Shown in pieces: positions 177 to 35,109 of a stretch of 64,000 nucleotides of DNA. The notes beneath the pieces are model-generated. The model made no database searches. It saw only the letters and a list, made by a program, of their open reading frames with translations, and was not told the DNA's origin. How positions within the stretch are numbered: position 1 is the first letter of the stretch; each line of letters begins with the position of its first letter. Origin of the DNA: Desulfatitalea alkaliphila (GTDB lineage Bacteria > Desulfobacterota > Desulfobacteria > Desulfobacterales > Desulfosarcinaceae); NCBI RefSeq assembly GCF_022968795.1, contig NZ_JALJRB010000002.1, positions 186,001 through 250,000 of the forward strand, read 5' to 3'. A program made the translations under genes and the position numbers.

Positions 177-3050
177 CTACCGGCCCCACGCGGACGCCAT
201 CGATTGGACAAAGCAACCCCCGCCGCCCCCACCGCCGCCGCCGCCGGAGCCCCCTTCGGCACGAACGATGTGGCCGCTGGCGACCAGCGCATAAGGCTGG
301 GGGCCGTAGGGGGTATTGTAGCCACTGACCCGCAGGGTGTAACGGCCGACCTCCGGTCTCTGCAAGGTGATGCTTTCGTTGTTGTTGACCCGGTCGCAGT
401 CGGTGGACCAGTCGGGCGTGTAACGCACATTGGCGCGGATGAGCGCGGTGTTGTCCGAAGGCGCCCAGGCATCGTCGTCCGTAGTTGTGTCGCGCACCAT
501 GGTACGCCCCTCCGGATTGCCCGCCTCCAAAACAATGCGAAGCAGAGCGGCGTCCCCTCGTTCGAGGGCGATGTAAAAATCCCCGTCGCCCAAGACCACA
601 TCCAGCGGGATGGTGTGATAGCCCCATGGCATGAATTGCAGCGTACGGCGCAGTAATACCCGATCCGGGTCCGGCATCCCTGCGAGATCGGCATAGACCA
701 CCACCTCCACGGGCGCGACGGACAGGTCGTCCGGGTCGTCTGCGTTGGCATAAGCAAAGGTGACACTCTCCAGGTAGGCGGGCGTGCGTTCGGGGGTGAA
801 CCGAACGGCATAGCTACGGGTATCGTAGACGATGCCCCCTTGGCCCCCATGATCATAGGCGATGGAGCTGACCGCGGAGGACTGCAAGGCGCCGTCCGGA
901 TAATGGACCGCACCCGACGGGGCGATCAACTGCAGGTCCAGATCGTTGACCAGGGCGCCGTGGGCCGACGGCAGCCCCGGATAGTCGGTCCAGGAAAGGG
1001 TCACCCGCAGCGGCGCATCGCCATCGGTGACCTTGATCGTGTGATCCTGGCGGCCGCCGGTTTCCAGGCCCGTGTTTTCATCATAAAAGAGGATATGGAA
1101 GGGCGCTTCCGGAAATACGCCGTCGCCCAGGTTCAAGCGCCCCCAGCCGGTCACGTTGTTGGGTCCCGGCCCGTAGGGGATCTCCTGGTGGTCGCCCGCG
1201 CCGTACTGCCCCGGTGAAATATCCTCCGCGCTGTTGAGCAGGGCCGCCTTGATCAGAGCCGCCGAAGGCGGATCGAAATCCGCCTCGGTCATCAAATACT
1301 CACGCATCAGGGCGGCGGCGCCGGCCACCAGGGGCGTGGCCATGCTGGTGCCGCCCATCCAGACGTAGTGATCGTTGTAGTTGCCCCAACCGATGTCTGC
1401 TTCCGCCGCCGCGGCCCGGGTGCGGGCGGAGAGGATGTTGGTGCCGGGGGCCACGATATCGGGCTTGTAGCGCCCGTCCAGCACGGGTCCCCGGGAGCTG
1501 AAGGCCGCCAGCCCGCGGTCATTGTTGGACATATGGTCCTCCCGGATGGGGTCGGCATGGTACAAGGGCCCCCACCCGCTCCCCCAAGCGAAGTCATAAC
1601 CCGCCCCCCTGGGCCGATCCCCCTCGGTGGCGCCCACCGCCAGGCAATTCTTGGCCGTGGCCGGCGCGCCGATGCTGTAACCGTCGATCACCCCGTCCCG
1701 GTCCCGGTCCACACCGTCGTTGCTGGCGGAGAAAAGAATCAAAAAAAAGGGGTTGTGCCACATGTAGGCATCCACATCGCGGGAGAATATCGAATAGGCA
1801 CTGGCCAGGGAAGATCCCCAACTGTTGGTGTGCAAATGGGCGCCCGCCAGGCGGGCCTCTTCGAACACCTCGCCCAGATCCGGTGGAAGCCCCTCCAGGC
1901 TGTTGGTGCCGTTCCGGTTGAGCGCCTGTAACACCAGTCCGGCTTTGGGGGCCATGCCGGCGTTGGTGCGCACGGGAAAGTGATCCGTGGCCGGATCGCT
2001 GCCGGACCACCAACCGTTGCCCAGCACCGATCCGGCCACGTGGGTCCCGTGGCCGTTGGTGTCCGAGGCGTTGTCGCCCACCGCACCCCCCTCTTCCACC
2101 GGCACGCGGTCGATGAGCGCCACCACCCGTGAGTTGCCTAGGCCGTCCTCGAAATCCTTGTGGATCTCGCCGGCGACGGTGCTGCCCATGTCCAGCCCGG
2201 TATCGGCCACTCCCACCACCTGCCCTTCGCCGTAGAGCCCGAACCGTTGCCAAGTCGGCCGAACCCCCATGATGTCGGCCGACACATCGTTGTACAGCTC
2301 CCACTGCGGCAGGGTTTCGATCCATTTCACCCCCTCGACGGCGGCCAGGTCGGCCACCCGGTCCGCCGGCAGTGCCACGGCAAGGGTCGTGCCGTCATGG
2401 GATGGGTGGTGGGATCGAACGATGCCGCCCCACCCTTGGATACGCTCAGTCACCACCGCCGGATCGACGCCGGGAAAAAGGTTGACCCGCAGTTCCGCTG
2501 TTGGCGCCTCGGCCTGCTCGTCGGCCTCTTCCCGTAAATAGATTCGGCTGCGGGCCGACGGGCTCACACGATAGGCCGGTTGGTAGACACCCACCCAGCG
2601 CACATGGACCATGCGCTGCACCGTTGCCCGGCGATCGGGGGCCATGCGCGCGATGAAGGCGAATTCAGGCACATAGTCGAACAGCTCCACGCCGGCATCG
2701 GCCAAGGCCGCCTTCCAGTCCGGCTGGATGGGACCGTCGAACTGGACGATGAAATAGGCCGTTTCACCGCCGCAGTCGCTTTGCAGGGTGCTGCTGCGCC
2801 CCCCGTCCGGCACCGCCGCTTCCTGCAACGGATCGAAACTGCGACCGCCGATGTGCAGCAGAATCCCCGGTGCCGTGACCGGTCCCGCTGGTGCCGATTC
2901 CCGAGGCGCTTCGACACGCCCGCCCATGGCAAAGGATCCGAAAGATCGCATCGGGTTGTCCCCGGCCAGGGCCGAACCGATCCATCCAACCAACAGCAGG
3001 GCCACTACAAGGCGCGGCAGCGACGGTTTACCGATTGTTTTTAAATTCAT
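177..3050 (-). CDS. Secreted subtilisin-like (S8) serine protease
   Basis: Predicted exported endopeptidase of 957 aa. Residues 1-29 form a signal peptide (hydrophobic core VVALLLVGWIG, cleavage after ALAG). The S8 triad is visible: Asp283 in VADTGLD, His334 in NGHGTH and Ser569 in GGTSMATP. The region after about residue 640 holds a jelly-roll-like segment with LRVTLSWTD and NDLDLQL, as in the C-terminal domain that accompanies many S8 proteases. The protein ends in a run of about 11 glycines followed by CFVQ and a short tail, a Gly-rich linker plus Cys arrangement that I associate with exported delta-proteobacterial proteins; its meaning here is inference. The ATG is preceded by an AGGA-type site (ctcctacg on the plus strand lies a little far upstream). 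It is divergent from the tetR-led operon. Confidence 0.93.
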   Translation of the reverse strand: MNLKTIGKPSLPRLVVALLLVGWIGSALAGDNPMRSFGSFAMGGRVEAPRESAPAGPVTAPGILLHIGGRSFDPLQEAAVPDGGRSSTLQSDCGGETAYFIVQFDGPIQPDWKAALADAGVELFDYVPEFAFIARMAPDRRATVQRMVHVRWVGVYQPAYRVSPSARSRIYLREEADEQAEAPTAELRVNLFPGVDPAVVTERIQGWGGIVRSHHPSHDGTTLAVALPADRVADLAAVEGVKWIETLPQWELYNDVSADIMGVRPTWQRFGLYGEGQVVGVADTGLDMGSTVAGEIHKDFEDGLGNSRVVALIDRVPVEEGGAVGDNASDTNGHGTHVAGSVLGNGWWSGSDPATDHFPVRTNAGMAPKAGLVLQALNRNGTNSLEGLPPDLGEVFEEARLAGAHLHTNSWGSSLASAYSIFSRDVDAYMWHNPFFLILFSASNDGVDRDRDGVIDGYSIGAPATAKNCLAVGATEGDRPRGAGYDFAWGSGWGPLYHADPIREDHMSNNDRGLAAFSSRGPVLDGRYKPDIVAPGTNILSARTRAAAAEADIGWGNYNDHYVWMGGTSMATPLVAGAAALMREYLMTEADFDPPSAALIKAALLNSAEDISPGQYGAGDHQEIPYGPGPNNVTGWGRLNLGDGVFPEAPFHILFYDENTGLETGGRQDHTIKVTDGDAPLRVTLSWTDYPGLPSAHGALVNDLDLQLIAPSGAVHYPDGALQSSAVSSIAYDHGGQGGIVYDTRSYAVRFTPERTPAYLESVTFAYANADDPDDLSVAPVEVVVYADLAGMPDPDRVLLRRTLQFMPWGYHTIPLDVVLGDGDFYIALERGDAALLRIVLEAGNPEGRTMVRDTTTDDDAWAPSDNTALIRANVRYTPDWSTDCDRVNNNESITLQRPEVGRYTLRVSGYNTPYGPQPYALVASGHIVRAEGGSGGGGGGGGGGCFVQSMASAWGR

Positions 3051-3139
3051 CCTGATCTCCTACGCGAACAAAGACGGTTGGGGTGATGCAAAAGACGACC
3101 AAAGGACATCATCGGTCGCCGCCCCCGAAACCTTAGGCC

Positions 3140-3175
3140 ATCGAAATCGGGATCGGGATCGAAATCCAAATTGAA
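3140..3175. repeat. Hexamer tandem repeat (ATCGRR-like)
   Basis: Six consecutive hexamers read ATCGAA, ATCGGG, ATCGGG, ATCGAA, ATCCAA, ATTGAA in the divergent intergenic region between the protease and the TetR gene. It is seen directly. Function unknown; it may be a slippage-generated spacer or a DNA-bending element. Confidence 0.7.
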
Positions 3176-3188
3176 CCAAATTTAGCAC

Positions 3189-3244
3189 TTGACAGCGATT
3201 CATTTTTCAGCCATGGTTTATCCATCAAATGATGGAAAGCATGG
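3189..3244 (+). promoter_or_regulatory. Candidate promoter -35 and TetR operator palindrome
   Basis: A consensus -35 hexamer TTGACA lies at 3189-3194, but no clear -10 follows. Overlapping its downstream side is a perfect 7-bp inverted repeat with 2-nt spacer (TCCATCA, AA, TGATGGA; 3221-3236). Its arms extend imperfectly outward to CCATG at 3211 and CATGG at 3240-3244. TetR repressors usually autoregulate through such palindromes beside their own start; the gene for one begins at 3272. Assignment of the site to that regulator is inference. Confidence 0.55.
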
Positions 3245-3271
3245 TTGCAACACCTTCCCGGAGACTCCGGC

Positions 3272-3901
3272 ATGCCCACCGCCCTTGACATCGCCCGACA
3301 AGCACCCGACTCCATGAAGGCCCGCATTCTGGCCGCCGCCCGCCGATTGTTCGGCGAGTATGGATTTCACGGGGTGACCACCCGCATGATCGCCAAGGAC
3401 GTGGGCATCGACATCTCCACCCTCCACTACCACTGGGGCGACAAGCAGGAACTGTACGAGGCGGTGTTGACCGACCTGAGCGACGAGATCCGGGGCAAGC
3501 TGATCGAAATCGAGGCCCTGGTGCACGGCAAGCCGCTGGACCAACGACTGGCGGCGGCCATCGATGTGATGTGCGATCACCTGTTCGCCAATCCCGAGGC
3601 GGCCAATCTGGTGCTGCTGAGCCAATTTTCCAAGAACCGCATCGCCTCCACCCTGGATGCCCGCATGGGCCGCCACCTGGGCAACATCGCCGTGGCCATG
3701 GGGCTGGCCGTGGACAAGGCCAATGTGTCGGCGCGGGCCAACGCCCGGGTGCTGGCGGTGTGGAATGCGGTGATCAATTTCGCGGCCGGCGAGGGGTCGT
3801 TCCGCCCCCTGCTCAAACTGGACCGCGACGCCTATGTGGCGGTGGTCAAGGAGACCCTGAAGTTCATCCTGATCCCGGCCTTCACCCGGGACGACCCGTA
3901 A
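3272..3901 (+). CDS. TetR/AcrR family transcriptional regulator
   Basis: 209-aa repressor-type regulator. The N-terminal helix-turn-helix is clear: ILAAARRLFGEYGFHGVTT followed by IAKDVGIDISTLHYHWGDK, the typical TetR recognition helix ending in a YxxxxxK-like motif. The C-terminal ligand-binding half is helical and diverged. I chose the ATG at 3272 rather than an in-frame TTG at 3245 because GGAG lies about 10 nt upstream and the upstream start would fall inside the palindrome. It is the first gene of a six-gene operon: the next start is 11 nt after its stop. The likely ligand is an acyl-CoA from the pathway encoded downstream (inference). Confidence 0.9.
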   Translation: MPTALDIARQAPDSMKARILAAARRLFGEYGFHGVTTRMIAKDVGIDISTLHYHWGDKQELYEAVLTDLSDEIRGKLIEIEALVHGKPLDQRLAAAIDVMCDHLFANPEAANLVLLSQFSKNRIASTLDARMGRHLGNIAVAMGLAVDKANVSARANARVLAVWNAVINFAAGEGSFRPLLKLDRDAYVAVVKETLKFILIPAFTRDDP

Positions 3902-3912
3902 GGAGGCAAACG

Positions 3913-5667
3913 ATGGCGCTCAACCTGGAAGCGGTGGGGCAGACGCTCGGGCCGATGACTAAACACTACACCTGGAAAGACGTGGTGCTCTACGCCCTGG
4001 GGGTGGGCGCCGGCGAGAACGACCTGCATTACTGCTACGAAAAGGATTTGAAAGTGATTCCCAGCTTCGCCATCGCGTCGATTTTCGATGTGCTGGCCCA
4101 GATCGGCATCAAATCCGAGGTCAATCTGGCCGGGGTGCTGCACGGCGAGCAGGAGCTGATCTTCCACCGGCCCATTCCCACCGAAGGCAGCCTGACCACC
4201 AAGGGGCGCATCCGCCACATCTACGACAAGGGGCCTGACCGCGGCGCCCTGATCATCGGTGAAAGCGACACGGTGGACGAAGCGGGCAACCGGTTGTTCA
4301 CCAGCATCTGCACGGTGTTCGGCCGGCTGGACGGCGGCTTCGGCGGACCCGACGCACCCAAACGCGCGCCGGCTTTTCCCGACCGGGCGCCCGACACGGT
4401 GGTGGCGGCCACCCCGGCGCCCAGCCAACCACTGCTGTACCGCCTCTCGGGAGACACCTTCAGTCTGCACGTGGATCCCGAATTCGCCCGCCTGTCGGGG
4501 TTTGAAAAACCCATCATGCACGGGCTGTGCACCCATGGCTACGCCTGCCGAGCCCTGTGCGACACCCTGATTCCCGGCGCGCCGGAAAAGGCCCGGCGCA
4601 TGGCCTGCCGCTTCAGCAAGCCGCTCTATCCCGGGATGCCCATCCAAACCCTGATCTGGCGCACGGAGCAGGGCAAGGCCCTCTGGCGGGTGGTCAATGC
4701 CGAGACCGGAGAGGTGGTGATCGACAACGGCGAATTCGAGTACGGCGATGAAGTGCCGCCCCGGATCCGCTTTGACGGACGGGTGGCCATCGTCACCGGC
4801 GCCGGCGGCGGCCTGGGCCGGGCCTACGCCCTGGAATTGGCCCGTCGCGGCGCCAAGGTGGTGGTCAACGACCTGGGCGGCGCCCGGGACGGCTCGGGCG
4901 ACGGCGCCGCCGCGCCGGCCGACCGGGTGGTGGCCGAGATCCGGGCCGCGGGGGGCGAGGCCGTGGCCGACCACAACTCCGTGGCCACGGTCGAAGGGGG
5001 CGCGGCCATCGTGCAAACCGCCCTCGAGGCTTTCGGCACCGTGGACATCCTGATCAACAACGCCGGCATTCTGCGGGACAAGAGCTTTGTCAACATGACG
5101 CCGGAGAACTGGCAGGCCGTGCTGGACGTGCACCTGCACGGCGCCTACCACGTCACCCGGCCCGCCTTCGCCGTGATGCGGGACAAGGGGTACGGCCGGA
5201 TCCTGATGACCACCTCGGCGGCCGGGCTCTACGGCAACTTCGGCCAGAGCAATTACGCGGCCGCCAAGATGGGGCTGGTGGGCCTGATGAACACCCTGAA
5301 ACTGGAGGGCGAAAAGCGCAACATCAAGGTCAACACCATCGCCCCCCTGGCCGCCTCCCGGCTCACCGAGGACATCCTGCCCCCCGACCTGTTCGCCAAA
5401 ATGCAGCCGGAATATGTGGTGCCCCTGGCGCTTTTTCTCTGCACGGACCAGTGCCCGGCAAGTGGCAACATCTACAATGCCGGCATGGGCTTCTTCAACC
5501 GGGTGGCGGTGATGACCGGCCCCGGCGCGGTACCGGCCGCGCAAGGCGCCGTGCCGACGCCGGAGGCGGTGCGCGATCAAGCGGCGGCGATCACCGACCT
5601 CGAAGCGGGCCGCACCTTCGGCCAACTGGCCGAGCAGGTGATGGATGTGGTCACAAAGGTTCAATGA
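3913..5667 (+). CDS. Hydratase-2 (MaoC-type)/SDR bifunctional enzyme, MFE-2-like but with reversed domain order
   Basis: 584 aa with two catalytic modules. Residues 1-285 are a double hot-dog hydratase 2: YRLSGDTFSLH keeps the catalytic Asp181 and His186 of the motif YxLSGDxNPLH, but Asn-Pro is replaced by Phe-Ser. PIMHGLCTHG follows as in peroxisomal MFE-2. Residues 287-540 are a short-chain dehydrogenase with TGAGGGLG (295-302), Ser435, Tyr448 and Lys452. Predicted roles: (R)-specific 2-enoyl-CoA hydration and 3-hydroxyacyl-CoA oxidation. In eukaryotic MFE-2 the order is SDR, hydratase, SCP2; here hydratase is first and SCP2 is absent, being found on the next protein. AGGAGG at 3901-3906 sets the start; a longer open frame upstream overlaps tetR and is rejected. 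Translationally close to both neighbours. Confidence 0.9.
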   Translation: MALNLEAVGQTLGPMTKHYTWKDVVLYALGVGAGENDLHYCYEKDLKVIPSFAIASIFDVLAQIGIKSEVNLAGVLHGEQELIFHRPIPTEGSLTTKGRIRHIYDKGPDRGALIIGESDTVDEAGNRLFTSICTVFGRLDGGFGGPDAPKRAPAFPDRAPDTVVAATPAPSQPLLYRLSGDTFSLHVDPEFARLSGFEKPIMHGLCTHGYACRALCDTLIPGAPEKARRMACRFSKPLYPGMPIQTLIWRTEQGKALWRVVNAETGEVVIDNGEFEYGDEVPPRIRFDGRVAIVTGAGGGLGRAYALELARRGAKVVVNDLGGARDGSGDGAAAPADRVVAEIRAAGGEAVADHNSVATVEGGAAIVQTALEAFGTVDILINNAGILRDKSFVNMTPENWQAVLDVHLHGAYHVTRPAFAVMRDKGYGRILMTTSAAGLYGNFGQSNYAAAKMGLVGLMNTLKLEGEKRNIKVNTIAPLAASRLTEDILPPDLFAKMQPEYVVPLALFLCTDQCPASGNIYNAGMGFFNRVAVMTGPGAVPAAQGAVPTPEAVRDQAAAITDLEAGRTFGQLAEQVMDVVTKVQ

Positions 5668-5679
5668 AAGGAGCGAATC

Positions 5680-8421
5680 ATGATCGGCATTACCGCCTAC
5701 GGCGCATATCTTCCAAAACTGCGGTTGCAGCGGGCCGCCATCTTCCAGTCCATGGGGTGGTTCGCCCCGGCCTTGATGATGGTGGCCCAGGGCGAACGCG
5801 CCATGTGCAATTGGGACGAGGATGCGGTCACCATGGCGGTGGCCGCCGCCCGGGACTGTTTGACCGGCCGTGACAAACAGGCGCTGCAGGGGCTCTACCT
5901 GGCCTCCACCAGCCTGCCCTTCGCCGACCGCCAGAACGCCGGCATCGTGGCCACGGCCCTCAACCTGCCCGGCACCCTTCTGACCGCCGATGTCACCGCC
6001 TCCCAGAAGGCCGGCAGCACGGCCCTGCTCACCGCCCTGGAAACGGTGCAGGGCGGCGCGCGCAACAACATCCTGGTGGCGGCCGCCGACCGGCGCGAAA
6101 CCCGGCCGGGCTATTTCTATGAAATGTGGTTCGGCGACGGGGCCGCCGCCCTGCAAGTGGGCGACAGCGACGTGATCGCCGCCTTCGAGGGCGCCTTCTC
6201 CGTCTCCTACGACTTTGTCGACCACTACCGGGCGGCGGACAAGCGGTTCGACTACTTCTGGGAAGAGCGATGGGTGCGCGACGAAGGCTACGGCAAGATG
6301 ATCCCGGAGGCGGTCAACGGCCTGCTGGCCAAGCTGGGCATCGCCATCGACCAAGTGGATCGCTTGGTCTACCCCTGCTTCTTCACCGCCGAACACCGCA
6401 ACATCGCCAAAAAATTGGGCGCCCGGCCGGACCAGGTGATGGACAACATGCACGAAGTGTGCGGCGAGACCGGCGCGGCCCACAGCCTGCTGCTGCTGGT
6501 GCGGGCGCTGGAGACGGCCGAACCGGGCCAACGCATTTTGATGGCCGGTTTCGGCCAGGGGTGCAATGCGCTGTGCTTCCGGGTCACCGAGGCCATCGCC
6601 GGCCTGGCCCCGCGCGCCGGGGTCCGCGGCGCGCTGGCCCGCGGCAAGGCCACCGACAACTACGCCAAGTGGCTCAAGTTCCGCGAACTGATCGACCCGG
6701 AAATGGGCATCCGGGCCGAGGCCCCCACCCAGACCGCCATGACCACCTTGTGGCGCAACCGGAAGATGCTGCTGGGACTGGTGGGCGGCCGCTGCCGCAC
6801 CTGCGGCACGCCGCAGTTTCCCAAGATGGACATCTGCGTCAATCCCGACTGCGGCGCCTTGCACAGCCAGGAGGACTACGAATTCGCCGACCGACCCGCC
6901 CGCATCAAAACCTTCACCGGCGATCTGCTGGCGGTGTCGGTGGACCCGCCCCACAAGTACGGCATGGTGCAGTTCGATGATGGCGGACGGCTGATGGCCG
7001 ATTTCACCGACTGCGACTTCGAGGAGCTGCAGGTGGGCCTGCCGGTGCAGATGGTCTTCCGCAAGCGCACCGAGGACAAGCAGCGGGGCTTTGTCAACTA
7101 TTTCTGGAAAGCCACCCCCACGCCGGATGCCGCCGAACAGATGCGCCGCATCCGTTTCGACGACCGGGTGGCCATCGTCACCGGCGCCGGCGGCGGCCTG
7201 GGCCGGGCCTACGCCCTGGAACTGGCGCGGCGCGGCGCCAAGGTGGTGGTCAACGACCTGGGCGGCGCCCGGGACGGCAGCGGCGCGGCCAGTGCGGCGG
7301 CGGATCGAGTGGTGGCCGAAATCAGGGAAGCCGGCGGGCAGGCGGTGGCCAACTACGACAACGTGGCCGGCGCCGAAGGCGGCGCGGCCATCGTGCAAAC
7401 CGCCCTGGACGCCTTCGGCCGGGTGGACATTCTGATCAACAACGCCGGCATCCTGCGGGACAAGAGCTTCGTCAAGATGGAAGCGGAGAACTGGCGTGCG
7501 GTGATGGACGTGCACCTCAACGGCGCCTACAACGTCACCCGGCCCGCCTTCGCCGCAATGAAAGCCAACGGCTTCGGCCGCATCGTCATGACCAGTTCGG
7601 CCGCCGGACTCTACGGCAACTTCGGCCAGGCCAACTACAGCGCCGCCAAAATGGCCCTGGTGGGGCTGATGAACACCCTCAAGCTGGAAGGGGGCAAATA
7701 CGACATCCGGGTCAACACCATCGCCCCCCTGGCCGCCTCCCGGCTCACCGAGGATGTGATGCCCCCCGAGCTGTTCGCAATGGCCAAGCCGGACGATGTG
7801 GTGCCCATGGTCCTCTACCTGTGCAGCGAGGGGTGCGACCACAGCGGCCAAATCTTCAACGCCGGTGTCGGCCACTTCAGCCGGGCGGCGCTGCTCACCG
7901 GGCCGCCGGTGCAACTGGGCCGGGAAGGGGATCCGCCGGCGGTGGAGGACATCGCCTTCCACTGGGACCACATCAATGACCTGCAAGGGGCCAAGGAGCT
8001 GGCGGATCTCAACGCCGCCACCGTGGACCTGATGACGCCGCCGCCGCCCAAGGACCGACCGGCCACGACCGGCGGCGGACAGACCCCCGCGGCCGAGGAA
8101 GCGCCGGACACCCAGGCGATCTTCGACCGCCTGGCGGGCACCTTCAAAGCCGATGCGGCCGAAGGGGTGGATGTGGTGTTCCAGTTCCTCATCTCGGGCC
8201 CCGGCGGCGGGAACTGGTCCTGCGAGATCAAGGACCGGCAGTGCACCGTGGCCGCCGGAGACCATCCCCGGCCCACCTGCACCCTGAAGATGGCAGCGGC
8301 CGACTTCGGCGCCATGATGACCGGCCGCATGGCGCCCATGCAGGCGTTCACCTCAGGCAAGCTGAAGATCGAGGGGGATGTGATGAAATCGCAGCTCATC
8401 GAAAAGCTGTTCACGATTTAA
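5680..8421 (+). CDS. Four-domain fusion: HMG-CoA synthase/KAS III-like + DUF35 Zn-ribbon/OB + SDR + SCP2
   Basis: 913 aa. Residues 1-330 resemble the HMG-CoA synthase/ketoacyl synthase III fold (opening IGITAYGAYLPKLRL). At the place where the nucleophilic Cys of ACYGxTAAL is expected, the sequence is SQKAGSTAL, putting Gln109 there. Residues 365-480 form a DUF35 module with a four-Cys zinc ribbon (C372, C375, C386, C391) and an OB-like part. Residues 493-760 are an SDR (TGAGGGLG at 501-508; Tyr653, Lys657), nearly identical to the SDR of the preceding gene. Residues 805-913 are an SCP2 lipid-carrier domain. Thus the SDR and SCP2 ends of an MFE-2 are present, while its hydratase sits on the neighbouring protein. 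Possible roles: acyl-CoA oxidation plus a decarboxylase, aldolase or scaffold step. Start 12 nt after the previous stop with GGAG upstream. Confidence 0.88.
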   Translation: MIGITAYGAYLPKLRLQRAAIFQSMGWFAPALMMVAQGERAMCNWDEDAVTMAVAAARDCLTGRDKQALQGLYLASTSLPFADRQNAGIVATALNLPGTLLTADVTASQKAGSTALLTALETVQGGARNNILVAAADRRETRPGYFYEMWFGDGAAALQVGDSDVIAAFEGAFSVSYDFVDHYRAADKRFDYFWEERWVRDEGYGKMIPEAVNGLLAKLGIAIDQVDRLVYPCFFTAEHRNIAKKLGARPDQVMDNMHEVCGETGAAHSLLLLVRALETAEPGQRILMAGFGQGCNALCFRVTEAIAGLAPRAGVRGALARGKATDNYAKWLKFRELIDPEMGIRAEAPTQTAMTTLWRNRKMLLGLVGGRCRTCGTPQFPKMDICVNPDCGALHSQEDYEFADRPARIKTFTGDLLAVSVDPPHKYGMVQFDDGGRLMADFTDCDFEELQVGLPVQMVFRKRTEDKQRGFVNYFWKATPTPDAAEQMRRIRFDDRVAIVTGAGGGLGRAYALELARRGAKVVVNDLGGARDGSGAASAAADRVVAEIREAGGQAVANYDNVAGAEGGAAIVQTALDAFGRVDILINNAGILRDKSFVKMEAENWRAVMDVHLNGAYNVTRPAFAAMKANGFGRIVMTSSAAGLYGNFGQANYSAAKMALVGLMNTLKLEGGKYDIRVNTIAPLAASRLTEDVMPPELFAMAKPDDVVPMVLYLCSEGCDHSGQIFNAGVGHFSRAALLTGPPVQLGREGDPPAVEDIAFHWDHINDLQGAKELADLNAATVDLMTPPPPKDRPATTGGGQTPAAEEAPDTQAIFDRLAGTFKADAAEGVDVVFQFLISGPGGGNWSCEIKDRQCTVAAGDHPRPTCTLKMAAADFGAMMTGRMAPMQAFTSGKLKIEGDVMKSQLIEKLFTI

Positions 8422-8442
8422 GGGACCCAGGGAGGTTTGCGC

Positions 8443-9648
8443 ATGGCAACCGGAATCAAGGACAAAGTGGCCATCATCGGCATGGGCTGCACCCGCTTCG
8501 GTGAACGCTGGGACGCCGGCGCCGAGGAGTTGATGGTGGAGGCCTTCGAGGAGTGCCTGGCCGACGCCGGCCTGGAAAAACGGCAGATCGGAGCGGCCTG
8601 GCTGGGCACCTGCATGGAGGAGATCAACGTGGGCAAGACGGCCATGCCCCTGGCCGTCACCCTGCGCCTGCCCATGATCCCCGTGACCCGGGTGGAGAAC
8701 TACTGCGCCACCGGCACCGAGGCCTTCCGCGGCGCCTGCTATGCCGTGGCCTCCGGCGCCTACGACATCTGTTTGGCCATGGGGGTGGAAAAACTCAAGG
8801 ACACCGGTTACGGCGGTCTGCCCAACCCGGGATCCAACGCCGGCAGCCTGCAGTGGCAGTGGATGCCCAACCTCTCGGCCCCCGGCGCCTTCGCCCAGCT
8901 GGCCAGCGCCTACCGGGCCAAGTACCGCGTCGGCGAGCAGGACCTCAAGCGCGCCATGGGGCGGGTGTCGGTCAAAAGCCACGCCAACGGCGCCCTCAAC
9001 CCCAAAGCGCACTTGCAAAAGGCGGTCAGCCTGGACCAGGTGCTGGGCGCCCCCATCATCGCCCACCCCCTGGGACTGTTTGACTGCTGCGGGGTCAGCG
9101 ACGGCGCGGCCTGCGCCATTGTCACCACCCCGGAAATCGCCGCCGGCCTGGGCAAGAAGGATTTCGTCACCGTCAAGGCCCTGCAGGTGGCGTTGAGCAG
9201 CGGCGAAGAGGCCGCCTTCAACCGCTGGGACGGCGATCACTTCATGACCACCGACCGCTGCAGCGCAATGGCCTACCAGGAGGCCGGCATCACCGATCCC
9301 AAACGGGAGATCAGCATGATGGAGGTGCACGACTGCTTCTCCATCACCGAACTGGTGACCATGGAAGATCTGCACATCTCCGAGCGGGGCCGCGCCTGGC
9401 ACGACGTGATGGACGGCTTCTACGACAGCGACGGCCAGATGCCCTGCCAGGTGGACGGCGGGCTCAAGTGCTTCGGGCACCCCATCGGCGCATCGGGCCT
9501 GCGCATGCTCTACGAGATGTATCTGCAATTGCACGGCCGCGCCGGCAAGCGCCAACTGGGCAACCCCCGCTACGGGCTGACCCACAATCTGGGCGGTTTC
9601 CCGTTTCAGAACATCTGCAGCATCGCGATCATCGGAAAGTACAAGTAA
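8443..9648 (+). CDS. SCPx-type thiolase (acetyl-CoA C-acyltransferase)
   Basis: 401-aa thiolase-superfamily protein without a lipid-carrier domain. Visible active-site elements are Cys88 in NYCATGTEAF (nucleophile), His296 in HDCFSITE and Cys343/His346 in CFGHPIGASG; the C-terminal THNLGG loop is also typical of the SCPx/lipid-transfer thiolase group. In that group the second motif is usually HDCFSxNE, so Asn is replaced by Thr here. Predicted to cleave a 3-oxoacyl-CoA at the end of the beta-oxidation round. Thiolases of this type often need a DUF35 partner (BbsAB; the archaeal thiolase/HMGCS/DUF35 complex), and a DUF35 domain lies in the preceding gene product. GGGAGG at 8430-8435 supports ATG 8443 rather than TTG 8437. 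Confidence 0.88.
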   Translation: MATGIKDKVAIIGMGCTRFGERWDAGAEELMVEAFEECLADAGLEKRQIGAAWLGTCMEEINVGKTAMPLAVTLRLPMIPVTRVENYCATGTEAFRGACYAVASGAYDICLAMGVEKLKDTGYGGLPNPGSNAGSLQWQWMPNLSAPGAFAQLASAYRAKYRVGEQDLKRAMGRVSVKSHANGALNPKAHLQKAVSLDQVLGAPIIAHPLGLFDCCGVSDGAACAIVTTPEIAAGLGKKDFVTVKALQVALSSGEEAAFNRWDGDHFMTTDRCSAMAYQEAGITDPKREISMMEVHDCFSITELVTMEDLHISERGRAWHDVMDGFYDSDGQMPCQVDGGLKCFGHPIGASGLRMLYEMYLQLHGRAGKRQLGNPRYGLTHNLGGFPFQNICSIAIIGKYK

Positions 9649-9696
9649 GCGCCCGGAAGACGTGCACGACATTACCGGGACAAGGAGAATCACACC

Positions 9697-10839
9697 ATGG
9701 ATATTCTCCGATACACCGAGGACCACCAACAGTTCCGCCGGCGCCTGCGGGCTTTCTGCGAACAGGAGGTGATCCCGCATGTCGACCAATGGGAGGCCCG
9801 GCGCCGGGTGCCCAGGGAGGCCTGGCGCAAGATGGGCCGGGCCGGTTTTCTGTGCCCCACGGTGGCCGAAACCTACGGCGGCATGGGCGGCGACTTCATC
9901 CACGCGCTCATCGTGGCCGAAGAGCTCTCCCGCACCGTGCACACCGGATTGGCGGCCACGTTGCACAGCGACGTGGTGGTGCCCTACATCGAATCCTTCG
10001 CCGCCGAACCGATCAAGCAGCGCTTCCTGCCCGGCTGCGTCAACGGCGACATCGTCACCGCCGTGGCCATGACCGAACCCAACGCCGGCAGCGACCTGGC
10101 GGGCATGCAGACCACGGCGGTGGAAGAGGGCGACACGGTGGTGCTCAACGGCACCAAAACCTTCATCTCCAACGGCCTCAACTGCGACCTGCTGGTGCTG
10201 GCGGCCAAGGACCCGGAGCAGTCCAATCCCCATCAAGCCATCTCCCTCTACCTGGTGGAAGCGGACACGCCCGGCTTCAAAAAGGGCAACCCCCTGCACA
10301 AAATGGGCTGGCACAGCCAGGACACGGCCGAGCTCTTCTTCACCAATTGCCGTGTGCCGGTGGCCAACCGCCTGGGGGAGCAAGGGGCCGGTTTCCTGAT
10401 GATGATGGAAAAGCTCCAGCAGGAGCGGCTGGCCTGTGTCATGGGGGCGGTGGCGGCGGCCGAACGGATCGTCGAATACACCATCGACCACTGCAAACGC
10501 ACCCTGGTGAACGGCCGGCCCCTCTGCCGCGCCCAGGCGGTGCAATTCGCCCTGGTGGAGATGAGCACCGAAGTCAAACTGGGCCGCACCTTCATGGAAA
10601 AACTCATCACCGACCACATGGAGAAGCAAAACATCGTGGTGGAAGTCTCCATGGCCAAGTACTGGTGCACCGACGCCGTGCACCGCATCGCCTCCCGCGC
10701 CCTGGATCTGCTGGGACGCCACGGCATGCTGGAGGCGTGCCCCATGGTGCGTGCCTTCCGCGATACCCGGGTGATGTCCATCTTCGCCGGCACCAACGAA
10801 ATCATGAAGGGCATCGCCGCCAAATTCATGGGATTGTGA
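9697..10839 (+). CDS. Acyl-CoA dehydrogenase, LCAD/IVD-type catalytic base
   Basis: 380-aa FAD flavoenzyme forming a 2-enoyl-CoA. Family signatures are present: TEPNAGSDLAGM (substrate/FAD loop), NGTKTFISNG, and IFAGTNEIMK near the C-terminus. The medium-chain enzyme has its catalytic Glu in YEGT; here that position is Ala (FAGT). Glu243 in LQQERL occupies the position of the alternative base used by isovaleryl-CoA and long-chain dehydrogenases, which fits a branched or bulky substrate (inference). AAGGAG precedes the ATG. The stop overlaps the start of the next gene in TGATG, so the two are probably translationally coupled. Confidence 0.93.
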   Translation: MDILRYTEDHQQFRRRLRAFCEQEVIPHVDQWEARRRVPREAWRKMGRAGFLCPTVAETYGGMGGDFIHALIVAEELSRTVHTGLAATLHSDVVVPYIESFAAEPIKQRFLPGCVNGDIVTAVAMTEPNAGSDLAGMQTTAVEEGDTVVLNGTKTFISNGLNCDLLVLAAKDPEQSNPHQAISLYLVEADTPGFKKGNPLHKMGWHSQDTAELFFTNCRVPVANRLGEQGAGFLMMMEKLQQERLACVMGAVAAAERIVEYTIDHCKRTLVNGRPLCRAQAVQFALVEMSTEVKLGRTFMEKLITDHMEKQNIVVEVSMAKYWCTDAVHRIASRALDLLGRHGMLEACPMVRAFRDTRVMSIFAGTNEIMKGIAAKFMGL

Positions 10840-12005
10840 TGAACGCAAACGCCTTACCATCTCCCGGCGCCCTGGACGGCGTCACCGTGCTGGATCTTTC
10901 CCGGCTGCTGCCCGGCCCCTACTGCTCCATGATCCTGGCCGACCACGGCGCGGCGGTGATCGCCATCGAAGACAAACGGCAGTACGCCGCCGACGGTCTC
11001 TTTTTGCCCACGGTGCAGCGCAACAAACGCCACATGACCCTGGACCTGAAAACCGACGCCGGCAAGGAGATCTTCATGCGCATGGCCCGCGGCGCCGATG
11101 TGATCATAGAAGGCTTCCGGCCCGGCGTGGCGGCGCGCTTGGGGGTGGACTACGACAGCGTGCGGCAGGTCAAGCCGGACATCATCTACTGCGCCATCAC
11201 GGGCTACGGCCAGACCGGCCCCTGCCGCGACCAGGTGGGCCACGACGTCAACTACCTGGCCCGGGCCGGGGCGCTGGATCTGATGGGCGACCCCGACCGC
11301 CCGCCGAGCATCCCCGGCATCCAGATCGCCGACATCGCCGCCGGCGGCATGAACGGCGCCATCGGCATCCTGCTGGCCCTCTACGCCCGAAACCGTACCG
11401 GCCGCGGCCAATACATCGACATCGCCATGACCGACGGCATGCTGGCCATGTTGCCCGTAGCCCACTTCTGGCACGGCTTCTCCGGCCAGGCGCCCCGCCG
11501 CGGCGACCACCTGCTGGGCCACCGCTACGCCTGCTACAACACCTACGCAACCGCCGACGACCGCGCCGTGGCCGTCGGGGCCTTGGAAAACCGCTTCTGG
11601 CGCCGGCTCTGCGAGGCAATGGATATGGCGCAATACGCCGACCTGCAGTTCGACGAAGCCCGCCGCGCAGAGATCATCGACGCATTCCGCCGCGCCTTCC
11701 GCCGACACCCCCTGTCCCACTGGGAAACCGTCCTCGGCGGCCAGCAAATTTGCGTCAGCGCCGTGCACACCTTGGAACAAGCCCTGTGCGACCCCCTGTT
11801 CCGAAAGCGGGAGATGGTGGCGCAGATCGAAACCCCCGAAGATCCCGGCGAAACCCATCTGGGCGTGCCGATCAAACTGAGCGTCACGCCCGGCACCCTG
11901 CGCACACCAAGCGCCCGTTTCGGCCAACACACCACGAAAATCCTCGCCGAATACGGCTACAGCGAAACCCAAATCCGGCAACTGCAGGCACAGAAGGTCG
12001 TATAG
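10839..12005 (+). CDS. CaiB/BaiF family enzyme, alpha-methylacyl-CoA racemase-like
   Basis: 388-aa class III CoA-transferase-fold protein. The segment GHDVNYLA with His135, ADIAAGG with Asp165 and VGALE with Glu250 match, in order and spacing, the catalytic His/Asp and conserved Glu regions of alpha-methylacyl-CoA racemases (GHDxNYLA, ADFAGGG, VGAxE), more closely than those of formyl- or succinyl-CoA transferases. Predicted role: epimerise 2-methyl-branched acyl-CoAs so that the stereospecific dehydrogenase can act; a CoA-transferase role is the alternative. It is the last gene of the operon, starting within the stop of the dehydrogenase. A much longer open frame upstream is an overlap artefact of GC-rich coding. 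Confidence 0.82.
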   Translation: MNANALPSPGALDGVTVLDLSRLLPGPYCSMILADHGAAVIAIEDKRQYAADGLFLPTVQRNKRHMTLDLKTDAGKEIFMRMARGADVIIEGFRPGVAARLGVDYDSVRQVKPDIIYCAITGYGQTGPCRDQVGHDVNYLARAGALDLMGDPDRPPSIPGIQIADIAAGGMNGAIGILLALYARNRTGRGQYIDIAMTDGMLAMLPVAHFWHGFSGQAPRRGDHLLGHRYACYNTYATADDRAVAVGALENRFWRRLCEAMDMAQYADLQFDEARRAEIIDAFRRAFRRHPLSHWETVLGGQQICVSAVHTLEQALCDPLFRKREMVAQIETPEDPGETHLGVPIKLSVTPGTLRTPSARFGQHTTKILAEYGYSETQIRQLQAQKVV

Positions 12006-31805: not shown

Positions 31806-33026
31806 CTACTCGACCTTGCGCATATATTCGGAGCGGAAGGGCGCGTCCACCGCATGCCACTGGCCATCCTGCACCCGATAGAGCTGCAGACTGTCCACCC
31901 CGGCCCGATCTGTGGCGGAATAGGTGACCGGCCCCACGGTGGTTACGGGGTAGAAGGCGTTCAGGCCGTTCATCTGGTTCAACTCGGCGGTCAAATTGAC
32001 CCGGTTCACCGGATTGCCCTTGGCCTTGCAGCGCCGGATGGCTTCGAAGGCCACCTGGGCCACCATGATGCCGTTGGTGTAGTTGTGGCTGTTGGCGGTC
32101 TTGTCGTCCCGGCCGTAGCGTTCGGCCAGAGCCAACTGCGCTTCGGTGCCCACGCCGGGCACGCTGGTGAGCCGATAGGAGGTGGTCCAGAAGAAGTTTT
32201 CCGCGGCGCTGCCCGCCAGGGCGATCAAATCGGTGCCGCCGGTATAGTGGGCCCCCATGAAGGTGATTTTATCTTTTTCTCCGAAGGTCTGCGCGATGAT
32301 GCCCAGGCGCTCGGCATCGTTGAGGAAGGTGGCCACGGGACTCTGCACCGTCTGAGCGATAACGAACTGCACGCCCTTGCTCATCAAGCGCTGCAAGGTA
32401 GCGGTGCTATCCAGGTCGGTGCCGTGCTCCACGGTCTCCACGATCTCGATGTTCAGTCCCGCCGCCATGGCCTTCTCCAGATCGGCCACCGGCCCGCGCC
32501 CGAAGGCGGACGGGTGAATAAACAGGGCCACCTTGGCCTTGCCGCCGTCGAAATGGCGCGCGATATATTCGGCCAGGCCGATGCACTGTTCCGAGTAGGA
32601 GGCGATGGGCAAAAAGATATAGTTGCTGTCCTCCACGTTGCCCCGATGAAACGATGCCGGAAGGGTCGGAATTTTCTCCTCCTCGAAATCCCGCTTCAAT
32701 GCCAGCGTCGATCCGGTGGAGTAGTTCAGATAGATCGGGATGCCCATGTCCAGGAATTCTTCGAAATTGCGTTTGGTCACGTCGTTCTTGTATTGGTCAT
32801 CGCGGATGGTGCAGTCGATGGTGTCCTTGCCCAGCAGTTTCTCTTCGTTGACGTACTTGAAAAAGTCTTCCACCCCTTTGGCATAGGGCTGCCCGGCGTC
32901 CGAGGTGGGACCGGACATGGCCAGCGACAGGGCGATCTTGATCACCTCCGCCCGGCTGGGCCCCGCCGCGGCGAGCAGCAGACAAACAACGGCAATGCCG
33001 ATCAGAAAAATCTTCATGTGTTTCAT
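31806..33026 (-). CDS. livJ: LIV-type ABC transporter periplasmic substrate-binding protein
   Basis: 406 aa with a signal peptide MKHMKIFLIGIAVVCLLLAA...SRAEV (cleaved after SRA). The mature protein begins VIKIALSLAMSGPTSDAGQ like LivJ-type receptors, with a central binding-protein body and C-terminal domain. AAAAGGAGG precedes the ATG at 33026. Its substrate is unknown; the acyl-CoA ligases in the operon suggest an organic acid rather than an amino acid (inference). Confidence 0.9.
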   Translation of the reverse strand: MKHMKIFLIGIAVVCLLLAAAGPSRAEVIKIALSLAMSGPTSDAGQPYAKGVEDFFKYVNEEKLLGKDTIDCTIRDDQYKNDVTKRNFEEFLDMGIPIYLNYSTGSTLALKRDFEEEKIPTLPASFHRGNVEDSNYIFLPIASYSEQCIGLAEYIARHFDGGKAKVALFIHPSAFGRGPVADLEKAMAAGLNIEIVETVEHGTDLDSTATLQRLMSKGVQFVIAQTVQSPVATFLNDAERLGIIAQTFGEKDKITFMGAHYTGGTDLIALAGSAAENFFWTTSYRLTSVPGVGTEAQLALAERYGRDDKTANSHNYTNGIMVAQVAFEAIRRCKAKGNPVNRVNLTAELNQMNGLNAFYPVTTVGPVTYSATDRAGVDSLQLYRVQDGQWHAVDAPFRSEYMRKVE

Positions 33027-33117
33027 CGTTTCCTCCTTTTGGTTGGCTTTCCTCACGACGGGTTTACGACGATGGGGCCCGATGCCGCCCCTTTTCTCCC
33101 GGCAGCCCCTCCGGCGA

Positions 33118-34212
33118 TCAATAGCGGAAGGGCCAGAGCTTGACATAGGACCGCGCTATGCGCCACCAGTTGGCGATACCGCGGGGTTCGAACATCAGGA
33201 ACAACACGATGACCAAGCCGAAGCTGAAGGGCCGCAGGGCGGTGGCCAGGTTCCCCTGGGCCGGAAAGATCTGGGCGGCCCAGGCCGACAAATGCTCCAC
33301 CTGGATATCCAGAAACTCGATGGCCGCCGGCCCCCAGAACGCGCCGTGCAGTGTGCCCAGGCCGCCCACGATGGCCATGGCCAGGTAGGTGATGGAGTGG
33401 TGCAGGGTGAAGGATTCGATCCCCACCCCCCGGTACAGATAAGCGTGCAACGCACCGGCCAGACCGGCCATGAATCCGGCCAGGGCGAAGGCGTACACCT
33501 TGGTCAAACCCGGGTGCATGCCCATGGCGTCGGCGGCCCGGTCGTTGTCGCGCACGGCGATCAGACAGCGGCCGAAACGGGTGCGCATCAGGTTGCGGAT
33601 GCCGAAACCGGTGATGACCACCACCACCAGGCTGGCATAATACCAGAAGACATAGTGGGACGAGCGGCCCACTTCGCCCGTCAACCAATGAACCCGGCCG
33701 ATGTAGATGGTCTGCCCTTGGTTGAAAAAGCCCATGAAGTGGATGACCCACTCGAAGATCATCTGGAAGGAAAGGGTCGCGATGGCCAGGTAGAGATGTT
33801 TGAGCCGCAGGGCCGGCAACCCCACGAAAGCGCCGAACAGGGCGCCCATGCCGCCGGAAAGCACGATCATCAGCGGCCAGGCGTGGGTGATCAGTTTGTG
33901 ACTGTCACCCAGTGTGGTGGCCAGCCCGGCCACGGTGTAGGCGCCGACGCCCACGAAGGCGGCATGGCCGATGGAGATCAAGCCGGCGTATCCGGTCACG
34001 ATGTTCAGCCCCATCACCGCCACCACGGCGATCAAGGTGTGGTTGACCACCAGCATGTATTTGTTGCTCAGCTCGAAGAACAGGGGCCAGGCGAACAGCA
34101 GCACGAGAACGGCCACGAAGACCAGTCGGTCCAGGTGGGTGAAGAAGATGCGCTGCTCTTCACGGTAAGAGGTGAAGAAATTGCCGGTGGCCAGCCAACG
34201 GTTCGCGGACAT
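33118..34212 (-). CDS. livM: LIV-type ABC transporter permease (LivM-like)
   Basis: 364-aa membrane protein with about 10 helices. NIVTGYAGLISIGHAAFVGVGAY is the LivM family signature, and the ERA-like cytoplasmic loop LMRTRFGRCLIAVRDNDRAADAMG includes the coupling segment. It lies 4 nt past the livH stop on the same strand. Functions with LivH and both ATPases in high-affinity uptake. Confidence 0.9.
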   Translation of the reverse strand: MSANRWLATGNFFTSYREEQRIFFTHLDRLVFVAVLVLLFAWPLFFELSNKYMLVVNHTLIAVVAVMGLNIVTGYAGLISIGHAAFVGVGAYTVAGLATTLGDSHKLITHAWPLMIVLSGGMGALFGAFVGLPALRLKHLYLAIATLSFQMIFEWVIHFMGFFNQGQTIYIGRVHWLTGEVGRSSHYVFWYYASLVVVVITGFGIRNLMRTRFGRCLIAVRDNDRAADAMGMHPGLTKVYAFALAGFMAGLAGALHAYLYRGVGIESFTLHHSITYLAMAIVGGLGTLHGAFWGPAAIEFLDIQVEHLSAWAAQIFPAQGNLATALRPFSFGLVIVLFLMFEPRGIANWWRIARSYVKLWPFRY

Positions 34213-34215
34213 AGG

Positions 34216-35109
34216 CTACACCCTCTCGATCTCATGGGTGCCGAACAGCCCGTGGGGCTTGAACAGCAGGATGATCAACAAAATGATGTAGGGCAGCACG
34301 TTGGCCGTGCCGCTCAGGCCCCACTGCCCGTCGAGATAACCGCCGGCGAACTGCTGAATCAGTCCCATGATGATGCCGGCCACCACCGCTCCGAAAACGG
34401 AATCCAGGCCGCCCAGAATCACGACGGGAAAGACCAGGATGCCGAAGGCGCGCAGCGTATCGAAATTGAGTCCGGTGATGTTGCCGATGATCGCCCCGGC
34501 GGCCGCGGCGCTCAGCCCCGCCATGGCCCAGGCGAGCCCGAAGACCCGAGGCACGGAGATGCCGATGGACATGGCGGCCAGTTGGTCATCGCTGACGGCC
34601 CGCATGCTGATGCCCAGGGTCGAACGTTTGAAAAACCAGGAAAACCCTCCGATCAGGATCACCGTGATGATCACGCCGACCAGTTGGGTCCAGGAAATGG
34701 AGACGCCGCCGAAGCTGATGGGCGTCACCGGCAGCACTGCGGGAAAAGAGTAATTCACCGAGCCGAAAGGGGTCAGATAGATGATGCCGTCCAGAATGGA
34801 CATCAAGCCGATGGTCACCATGATCACCGAAATGATCGGTTCGCCGATCAAGCGCCGCAGGAAAACACGCTCCACGCTCATGGCCATGAAGAAGGTGAGC
34901 ACCATGCTGGCCAGAAAGGCGATAAGGATCGGCACCTTGAGCCACACGGTGAGCGCATAGACCATGAAGGCGCCAATGGCGATGAGCTGCCCGTGGGCGA
35001 TATTGAGCACCCGGCTCGATTTGTAGATCAACACGAAGCCGAGGGCCGAAAGGGCGTAAATGGACCCCACCACGATGCCGCTGATTACCAATTGAAAAAA
35101 GTAGCTCAT
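34216..35109 (-). CDS. livH: LIV-type ABC transporter permease (LivH-like)
   Basis: 297-aa membrane protein with about 8 helices. It has the LivH opening GIVVGSIYALSALGFVLIYKSS and NIAHGQLIAIGAFMVY, and the coupling loop FKRSTLGISMRAVSDDQLAAMSIGI. The start overlaps the end of the upstream acyl-CoA ligase by 4 nt (ATGA), showing translational coupling. Confidence 0.92.
   Translation of the reverse strand: MSYFFQLVISGIVVGSIYALSALGFVLIYKSSRVLNIAHGQLIAIGAFMVYALTVWLKVPILIAFLASMVLTFFMAMSVERVFLRRLIGEPIISVIMVTIGLMSILDGIIYLTPFGSVNYSFPAVLPVTPISFGGVSISWTQLVGVIITVILIGGFSWFFKRSTLGISMRAVSDDQLAAMSIGISVPRVFGLAWAMAGLSAAAAGAIIGNITGLNFDTLRAFGILVFPVVILGGLDSVFGAVVAGIIMGLIQQFAGGYLDGQWGLSGTANVLPYIILLIILLFKPHGLFGTHEIERV

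Follow-up and report, generated by a model that had tools for sequence, protein, structure and literature searches.

Adjacent hydratase-SDR and pseudo-HMGS/DUF35-SDR-SCP2 fusion genes as the probable core of a beta-oxidation system in Desulfatitalea alkaliphila

Two adjacent genes in Desulfatitalea alkaliphila encode multidomain fusion proteins that we read, at a probability of roughly 0.6, as the core of a single beta-oxidation system acting on a CoA-activated acid, its fusions having arisen from separate genes and its pseudo-HMG-CoA-synthase (pseudo-HMGS) domain docking a thiolase. The genes lie 12 bases apart on the + strand of the 64,000-nucleotide stretch of DNA analysed here (the window; positions are counted from its first letter). 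P0001 (3913..5667, + strand, 584 aa; ORF, Pfam and solved-structure matches) fuses a hydratase 2 to an SDR, and P0002 (5680..8421, + strand, 913 aa; ORF, Pfam and a structure model) runs from the pseudo-HMGS domain through a zinc ribbon and OB fold and an SDR to an SCP2 domain. Both ORFs and both domain orders had been given at these coordinates in the original prediction, and ORF and Pfam checks confirm them. The fresh points are the order of the fusion, a conserved dead HMG-synthase as likely scaffold, and a twin SDR core, one catalytic module common to two chains, with conversion in some lineages. The pair would also offer a testable case of substrate hand-over built into the beta-oxidation of sulfate reducers and syntrophs.

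The MFE-2-type hydratase 2 domain of P0001 (aa 1-280; 3913..4752, + strand; PF22622, PF01575) is divided by Pfam into a hydratase 2 N-domain (aa 18-137) and a MaoC domain (aa 156-269), with the SDR match following at aa 290-478. It matches the human MFE-2 hydratase 1s9c (E 1.2e-46) and is outscored there by the MaoC family protein 3khp (E 1.9e-54). The hydratase motif at 4453-4470 reads GD-x-F-x-LH; Asp181 and His186 are retained, and a Phe occupies the position at which the hydratase 2 motif usually has Asn. This Phe is found in all 52 relatives with the hydratase-SDR order, and the sole other chain in the count, that of locus L150, is the one to which the single RNP counted is assigned. Given the Phe, hydratase activity of P0001 is likely but not certain. 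SDR domain 1 (aa 285-560; 4765..5592, + strand; PF00106, E 6.5e-41) carries Ser435, Tyr448 and Lys452, and its best relatives among solved structures are MFE-2 dehydrogenases. Three more places with MaoC domains were found in the window's own genome (G000:C40, G000:C14 and G000:C78), one of them under the family cut-off.

P0002 begins with a domain resembling HMG-CoA synthase and PhlA (aa 1-335; 5680..6684, + strand; phmmer and residue counts), followed by a zinc ribbon and OB fold of DUF35 type (aa 346-488; 6715..7143, + strand; PF12172, PF01796) with Cys372, Cys375, Cys386 and Cys391; these two parts are referred to below as KS-OB. SDR domain 2 (aa 491-770; 7150..7989, + strand; PF00106, E 2.1e-43), with Ser640, Tyr653 and Lys657, and an SCP2 domain (aa 801-913; 8080..8418, + strand; PF02036, E 5.4e-19) complete the chain. 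Pfam places ACP_syn_III_C at aa 216-297, OB_ChsH2_C at aa 419-461, SDR at aa 496-683 and SCP2 at aa 824-911, while zf-ChsH2 at aa 367-393 scores 23.0 bits, slightly below the Pfam cut-off of 23.2. NCBIfam models for archaeal HMG-CoA synthase match aa 1-338 below their cut-offs; phmmer matches for the HMGS-like domain are PhlA (E 6.1e-36 and 1e-35) and archaeal HMGCS (E 2.1e-27), and the DUF35 part matches the archaeal DUF35 protein 6esq_E (E 1.7e-15). The SDR is 50% identical over 295 columns to the rat and human MFE-2 dehydrogenases, and its best Foldseek match is the rat enzyme, 1gz6. An AlphaFold model built from 35 sequences (mean pLDDT 72, pTM 0.55) has the domains folded at moderate confidence, and its best solved matches include MFE-2 dehydrogenases, then other SDRs, PhlA and archaeal HMGCS; at this confidence it supports the domains of P0002 and not their arrangement.

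The catalytic Cys and Glu positions of the HMGS-like domain are occupied in P0002 by Gln109 and Thr77. Across 117 rows, counted after setting aside four cut-off rows, neither a Cys at the Gln109 position nor a Glu at the Thr77 (Glu82) position was found in any, and a functional HMG-CoA synthase was accordingly rejected for P0002. As PhlA likewise lacks these residues, the domain is read by analogy as a likely docking scaffold for the thiolase. The sections of PMC6392133 dealing with the PhlABC complex describe PhlA as without catalytic Cys and Glu, have the bound substrate touched by PhlC residues only, and hold PhlA and PhlB to be necessary for assembly of the complex; DUF35 domains are described, in the corresponding part of PMC12329534, as scaffolds between HMGS-like and thiolase subunits.

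The pair sits in an operon-like run of genes on the + strand, a run that relatives repeat. Upstream is a TetR-family regulator (3245..3901, + strand; Pfam TetR_N, E 2.7e-16), whose likely start lies a few codons inside its ORF. Among the best 80 of 582 relatives, a TetR match precedes the hydratase-SDR ORF at 36 of the 47 loci with room for one, 32 of these on the same strand. Downstream, an SCP2-type thiolase (8443..9648, + strand; profile and solved-structure matches, residues) is encoded by an ORF that opens at a TTG at 8437, the ATG at 8443 agreeing better with relatives; it is assigned to this type on Cys88, HDCF from residue 296 and GHP from residue 345, all in line with true thiolases. 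An acyl-CoA dehydrogenase (9697..10839, + strand; Pfam) and a CoA-transferase of family III, the CaiB/racemase type (10836..12005, + strand; PF02515, E 2.7e-102), follow. The thiolase adjoins the KS chain at 65 of the 66 loci with room among the same best 80 of 582, another 14 being cut off. The sole exception is L094, a chromosome record in which the KS-OB-SDR frame breaks off after 611 aa without a thiolase match behind it. The window encodes an HMGS-like domain, a zinc ribbon/OB fold and an SCP2-type thiolase together, the gene set expected of a DUF35-bridged thiolase complex of the PhlABC/HMGCS type, which their products may form. Fatty-acid degradation operons often carry an acyl-CoA dehydrogenase and a TetR gene. 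Peroxisomal branched-chain oxidation also resembles the set, with its racemase-type CaiB, hydratase 2, 3R-type dehydrogenase, SCP2-type thiolase and SCP2, a resemblance we take as a lead only. Elsewhere in the window, an acetyl-CoA hydrolase/transferase is fused to a GNAT acetyltransferase domain (38007-39896, - strand), and branched-chain-type ABC transporter genes (a binding protein and two permeases) lie beside an AMP-binding acyl-CoA ligase (31806-37055, - strand).

The fused layout recurs in many relatives. KS-OB matches were found in 32 of 60 genomes (the window's own and 59 relatives), with 17 rows, the window's included, having frames of 804-935 aa. Among GTDB species genomes, the KS ORF includes an SDR at 61 of the best 80 loci, lacks it at 14 and runs into a contig end at 5; as these 80 are the most window-like of 582 relatives, the proportion of 61 in 80 is an overestimate of the fusion's frequency. 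Six loci repeating an already included contig were left out of the rows analysed. In a sample of the phylum, an OB fold and an SDR share one frame in 10 of 247 genomes, the window's own included, as read from the match rows (E limit 1e-40). Judged by their record titles, most hosts are Desulfobacterales, Desulfobacteraceae, Deltaproteobacteria and Syntrophales MAGs; Desulfatibacillum, Desulfomonile and Desulfosarcina alkanivorans, which has the fused layout, are also among them. One genome, G008, belongs to the same genus as the window's. The KS-OB part stands unfused in the records under the titles Nitrospirae and Myxococcales; under Chloroflexi or Anaerolineae it is unfused or truncated, and one Phycisphaerales record has the fused form. 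An assembly artefact was rejected because these fused ORFs turn up in numerous independent assemblies, the complete Desulfosarcina alkanivorans PL12 chromosome (L109) among them. The four-domain chain had been put forward as a layout not yet described; a literature search of open-licence PMC papers found no description of it, although the many existing sequences with the same domain order (those 61 loci) lower its novelty. Within its lineage the layout is widespread, and gene fusion accounts for it readily.

The hydratase-linked chain varies more in its ending. A hydratase match lies in an ORF at 56 of the best 80 loci: 42 have hydratase-SDR-SCP2 (3 at contig ends), 10 hydratase-SDR (1 at an end, with L138 and L154 sitting on short or broken stretches), 3 a hydratase alone and 1, L150, SDR-SCP2-hydratase. 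The L150 chain (2774-5203 in a MAG titled Myxococcales, cut by the contig end) lies right after KS-OB and thiolase genes; its order is SDR-SCP2-SCP2-hydratase when a second SCP2, read by eye from the sequence, is counted, and it is probably an independent fusion of the same set. In another set of genome stretches, nine first chains have SCP2 and seven lack it, the seven being those of the window, its genus-mates L047-L050 and L077, and L056 of another family; all these SCP2 counts are by BLAST at 1e-5, a threshold that weak copies may escape (L123, at 728 aa, possibly holds one). The idea that SCP2 belongs behind the KS-linked SDR only does not hold for most relatives checked, which end both chains in SCP2. 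Its absence from the first chain here is therefore probably a loss, judging from the relatives' sequences; SCP2 probably stood at the end of both chains originally and was then lost in several lineages, more than one loss being needed because first chains without it occur in several separate ones. In L077, of the same genus, the KS-OB-SDR-SCP2 chain is divided between two overlapping frames (7394-10124), either a real break or an assembly error.

The two SDR domains had been called near-identical and their duplication, or a conversion between them, recent. They are indeed paralogues that align at both the DNA and the protein level, with 81% DNA identity across 767 columns (E = 0.0) and 72% protein identity over the domain, short of near-identity. 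Long identical DNA is also present: the 55 bases at 4782..4836 (+ strand), which code for the NAD-binding motif, recur at 7167..7221 (+ strand) in an exact-match search, and no such match arose in 100 shuffles. Nevertheless, this stretch alone is no sign of a recent event, because over the first 30 SDR codons, where the window's own pair is 92% identical, four same-genus genomes are comparably close to the window (86-91% for hydratase-linked and 81-92% for KS-linked SDRs).

For the wider comparison, pairs were scored where both SDR domains reach at least 240 aa, which holds for 52 of 92 loci. The Ser, Tyr, Lys and NAD-type Asp are present in both SDRs of all 52 genomes. In a tree of 104 SDR rows, each of the window's copies clusters with genus copies of the same kind (support 100/97 and 98/94); a recent duplication in the window is rejected on this ground, and the duplication predates the genus. 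The hydratase-linked label requires 12 changes on this tree, and the two SDRs of one genome are sisters in L061, L113, L123, L124, L137 and L152 (starred support). With 30 of the 52 pairs and 21 SDRs from loci without a fused pair as rows, the AU test rejects the hydratase-linked SDRs as a single clade (p 4.5e-6) but does not reject all fused SDRs as one clade (p 0.29), an arrangement from which the best tree departs (3 changes).

Conversion was assessed from the run length of identity on silent codons in the 52 own pairs and 300 cross-genome pairs. Three own pairs pass under Bonferroni correction (L113, L124 with a run of 152, and L152), and p < 0.01 is reached by 4 of the 52 own pairs vs 2 of the 300 cross-genome pairs. 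Tracts left by recent gene conversion between the SDR domains of the two adjacent genes are seen in L124 and L113, five consecutive 30-codon windows in L124 being 99-100% identical. In the window the same test gives p = 0.13, so conversion is rejected as an established fact there, and the claim of a recent event is supported on neither count; recent conversion is clear in a few relatives. Silent identity between the window's SDRs is nevertheless 76% against 61% expected from codon use, and the excess of 14.5 points tops every one of the 20 comparisons with five genus-mates (3.0 to 12.3), a hint of some homogenisation but no proof. An own pair exceeds the mean cross-genome likeness of the two kinds in 50 of 52 genomes in the core and in 35 of 52 in the C-terminal extension; this excess may be partly due to shared base composition, as it is also present, more weakly, in the extension, and codon use by itself already predicts 61% silent identity for the window's pair. 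In our reading the duplication is old, and the core has been converted from time to time in some lineages.

With an acyl-CoA dehydrogenase, a hydratase 2, an MFE-2-type SDR and a thiolase, a full round of beta-oxidation is encoded, and from sequence an (R)-specific system is the most likely. An enoyl-CoA would be hydrated to a 3R-hydroxyacyl-CoA and then oxidised by either SDR. The pseudo-HMGS/OB part would bind the thiolase in the way that PhlC is held by PhlA and PhlB, so that the 3-oxoacyl-CoA would be cleaved beside its site of formation, and the SCP2 domain may hold the acyl chain. The fusions would have arisen from a separate-gene cluster in Desulfobacterota or a closely related group; one SDR(-SCP2) module would have come onto two chains, and the first chain would later have lost its SCP2 in the window's genus. 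A more speculative step is that the SDR copies pair across chains, linking hydratase to thiolase, an idea suggested by the dimeric working form of MFE-2 dehydrogenases (stated in the portion of PMC3538638 concerned with these enzymes). Compatibility of the copies would then be maintained by gene conversion acting now and then on the SDR core. We regard as tentative, and rather doubtful, the full version of this proposal, a bacterial trifunctional assembly in which cross-chain pairing couples the hydratase to the thiolase bound by pseudo-HMGS/DUF35 and conversion matches the pairing surface; no description of an assembly of this cross-paired kind was found in open-licence PMC papers, and both SDRs could as well form homodimers.

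A less likely alternative to the main reading is that the pair is fused as described but its dehydrogenases serve different substrates or chain lengths and stay unpaired, a situation to which the tandem dehydrogenases of yeast MFE-2 can be likened. Two full SDR copies are kept in all 52 genomes scored (scoring being confined to genomes with both), and the C-terminal extensions of the two kinds diverge, with 54% identity within a genome compared with 81% in the core. However, just one column separates the kinds at 80% or more across these genomes, and the cores are homogenised rather than diverging in several lineages. That the KS-OB-thiolase unit instead runs a Claisen-type condensation or an aldol cleavage, in a biosynthetic or steroid side-chain degrading role, is improbable, although the HMGS-like fold is there and the DUF35-linked thiolase folds named in the relevant part of PMC12329534 include the aldolases Sal and Ltp2. 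Against such chemistry stand a KS domain devoid of catalytic Cys or Glu and a thiolase that keeps the residues of true thiolases. The acyl-CoA dehydrogenase and TetR gene in the run, as often in fatty-acid degradation operons, also speak against this reading.

The direction of change was read from a KS-OB tree of 121 rows (76 fused, 41 unfused and 4 cut off), rooted on four distant unfused sequences (L067, L068, L069 and L076); it is a quick tree with several long branches, weak inner forks and one contig entered twice (L113 and L178). The fused/unfused label changes 3 times on it vs 33.9 times in shuffles, the successive outgroups are unfused, and the fused rows are nested inside. L116 and L119, unfused within fused rows, are best read as later losses of SDR2-SCP2; the branches around L140 are weak. 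Outgroup rows L161-L166, L172 and L173 encode CaiB, KS-OB, thiolase and SDR as separate genes in one cluster; in L163, the one such row whose small genes between thiolase and SDR were checked by Pfam, these are a hydratase N half and a MaoC half, and L172 additionally has TetR, acyl-CoA dehydrogenase and CaiB downstream. On plasmids of the aerobes Sphingomonas paeninsulae and Variovorax paradoxus, SDR, MaoC, KS-OB and thiolase are four adjacent genes. Long SDR frames in five further stretches from three genomes of the phylum yielded no hydratase or SCP2 matches at 1e-3. Fusion of what were once separate genes in a single fat-breakdown operon is the probable origin of the pair, so that separate bacterial beta-oxidation genes can be seen turning stepwise into long fusions. 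The earlier proposal started from an ancestral MFE-2 (SDR-hydratase-SCP2) that came apart, with its SDR being copied and the fragments joined to a KS-DUF35 protein, and although the SDRs are closest to MFE-2 dehydrogenases among solved structures, the hydratase matches 1s9c (below 3khp) and the Myxococcales-titled MAG has its SDR-SCP2-SCP2-hydratase chain beside KS-OB and thiolase, we reject this as very improbable on the nesting of the fused form, the separate SDR and hydratase genes of the outgroup clusters and those SDR frames without hydratase or SCP2, our searches, anchored on KS-OB or the window's SDR, covering MFE-2-order chains only near these.

Among known systems, the PhlABC Friedel-Crafts acylase of Pseudomonas protegens likewise has an HMGS-like subunit without catalytic Cys and Glu, a DUF35 protein and a thiolase-like subunit; its parts are separate subunits, whereas in the window the HMGS-like and DUF35 parts are fused to each other and to SDR and SCP2, within a gene run of degradation type. 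The archaeal HMGCS complex has the same three folds, with DUF35 bridging, but has Cys114 and Glu82 (as given in the portion of PMC6392133 on that complex) where the window has Gln and Thr. Shy-Sal and ChsH2-Ltp2, in the part of PMC12329534 that treats them, link a hydratase, whose MaoC domain is named in a separate abstract, via DUF35 to a thiolase-fold enzyme, like the window set, but are aldolases whose hydratase is directly joined to DUF35, and SDR and SCP2 are not mentioned in that part; the BbsAB benzoylsuccinyl-CoA thiolase, covered there too, combines DUF35 and thiolase as in the window. The window's thiolase matches the BbsAB thiolase subunit 7pxp_C (E 4.4e-37), and the dehydrogenase BbsD of BbsCD was also matched (7pcs_B, E 1.6e-28). 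We know of no HMGS-like domain or fusion like the window's in BbsAB or BbsCD. The unfused clusters of the Sphingomonas paeninsulae and Variovorax paradoxus plasmids place the same functions side by side, all as separate genes, and these stretches gave no SCP2 matches at 1e-5. Eukaryotic MFE-2 (D-bifunctional protein, HSD17B4) has the same three domain types as the window pair, in the order SDR, hydratase 2, SCP2. In contrast, the window pair consists of two chains, has the hydratase before the SDR, the SDR twice and SCP2 on the second chain only, and includes the extra KS-OB part, and the history of this fusion pair is set apart from that of eukaryotic MFE-2.
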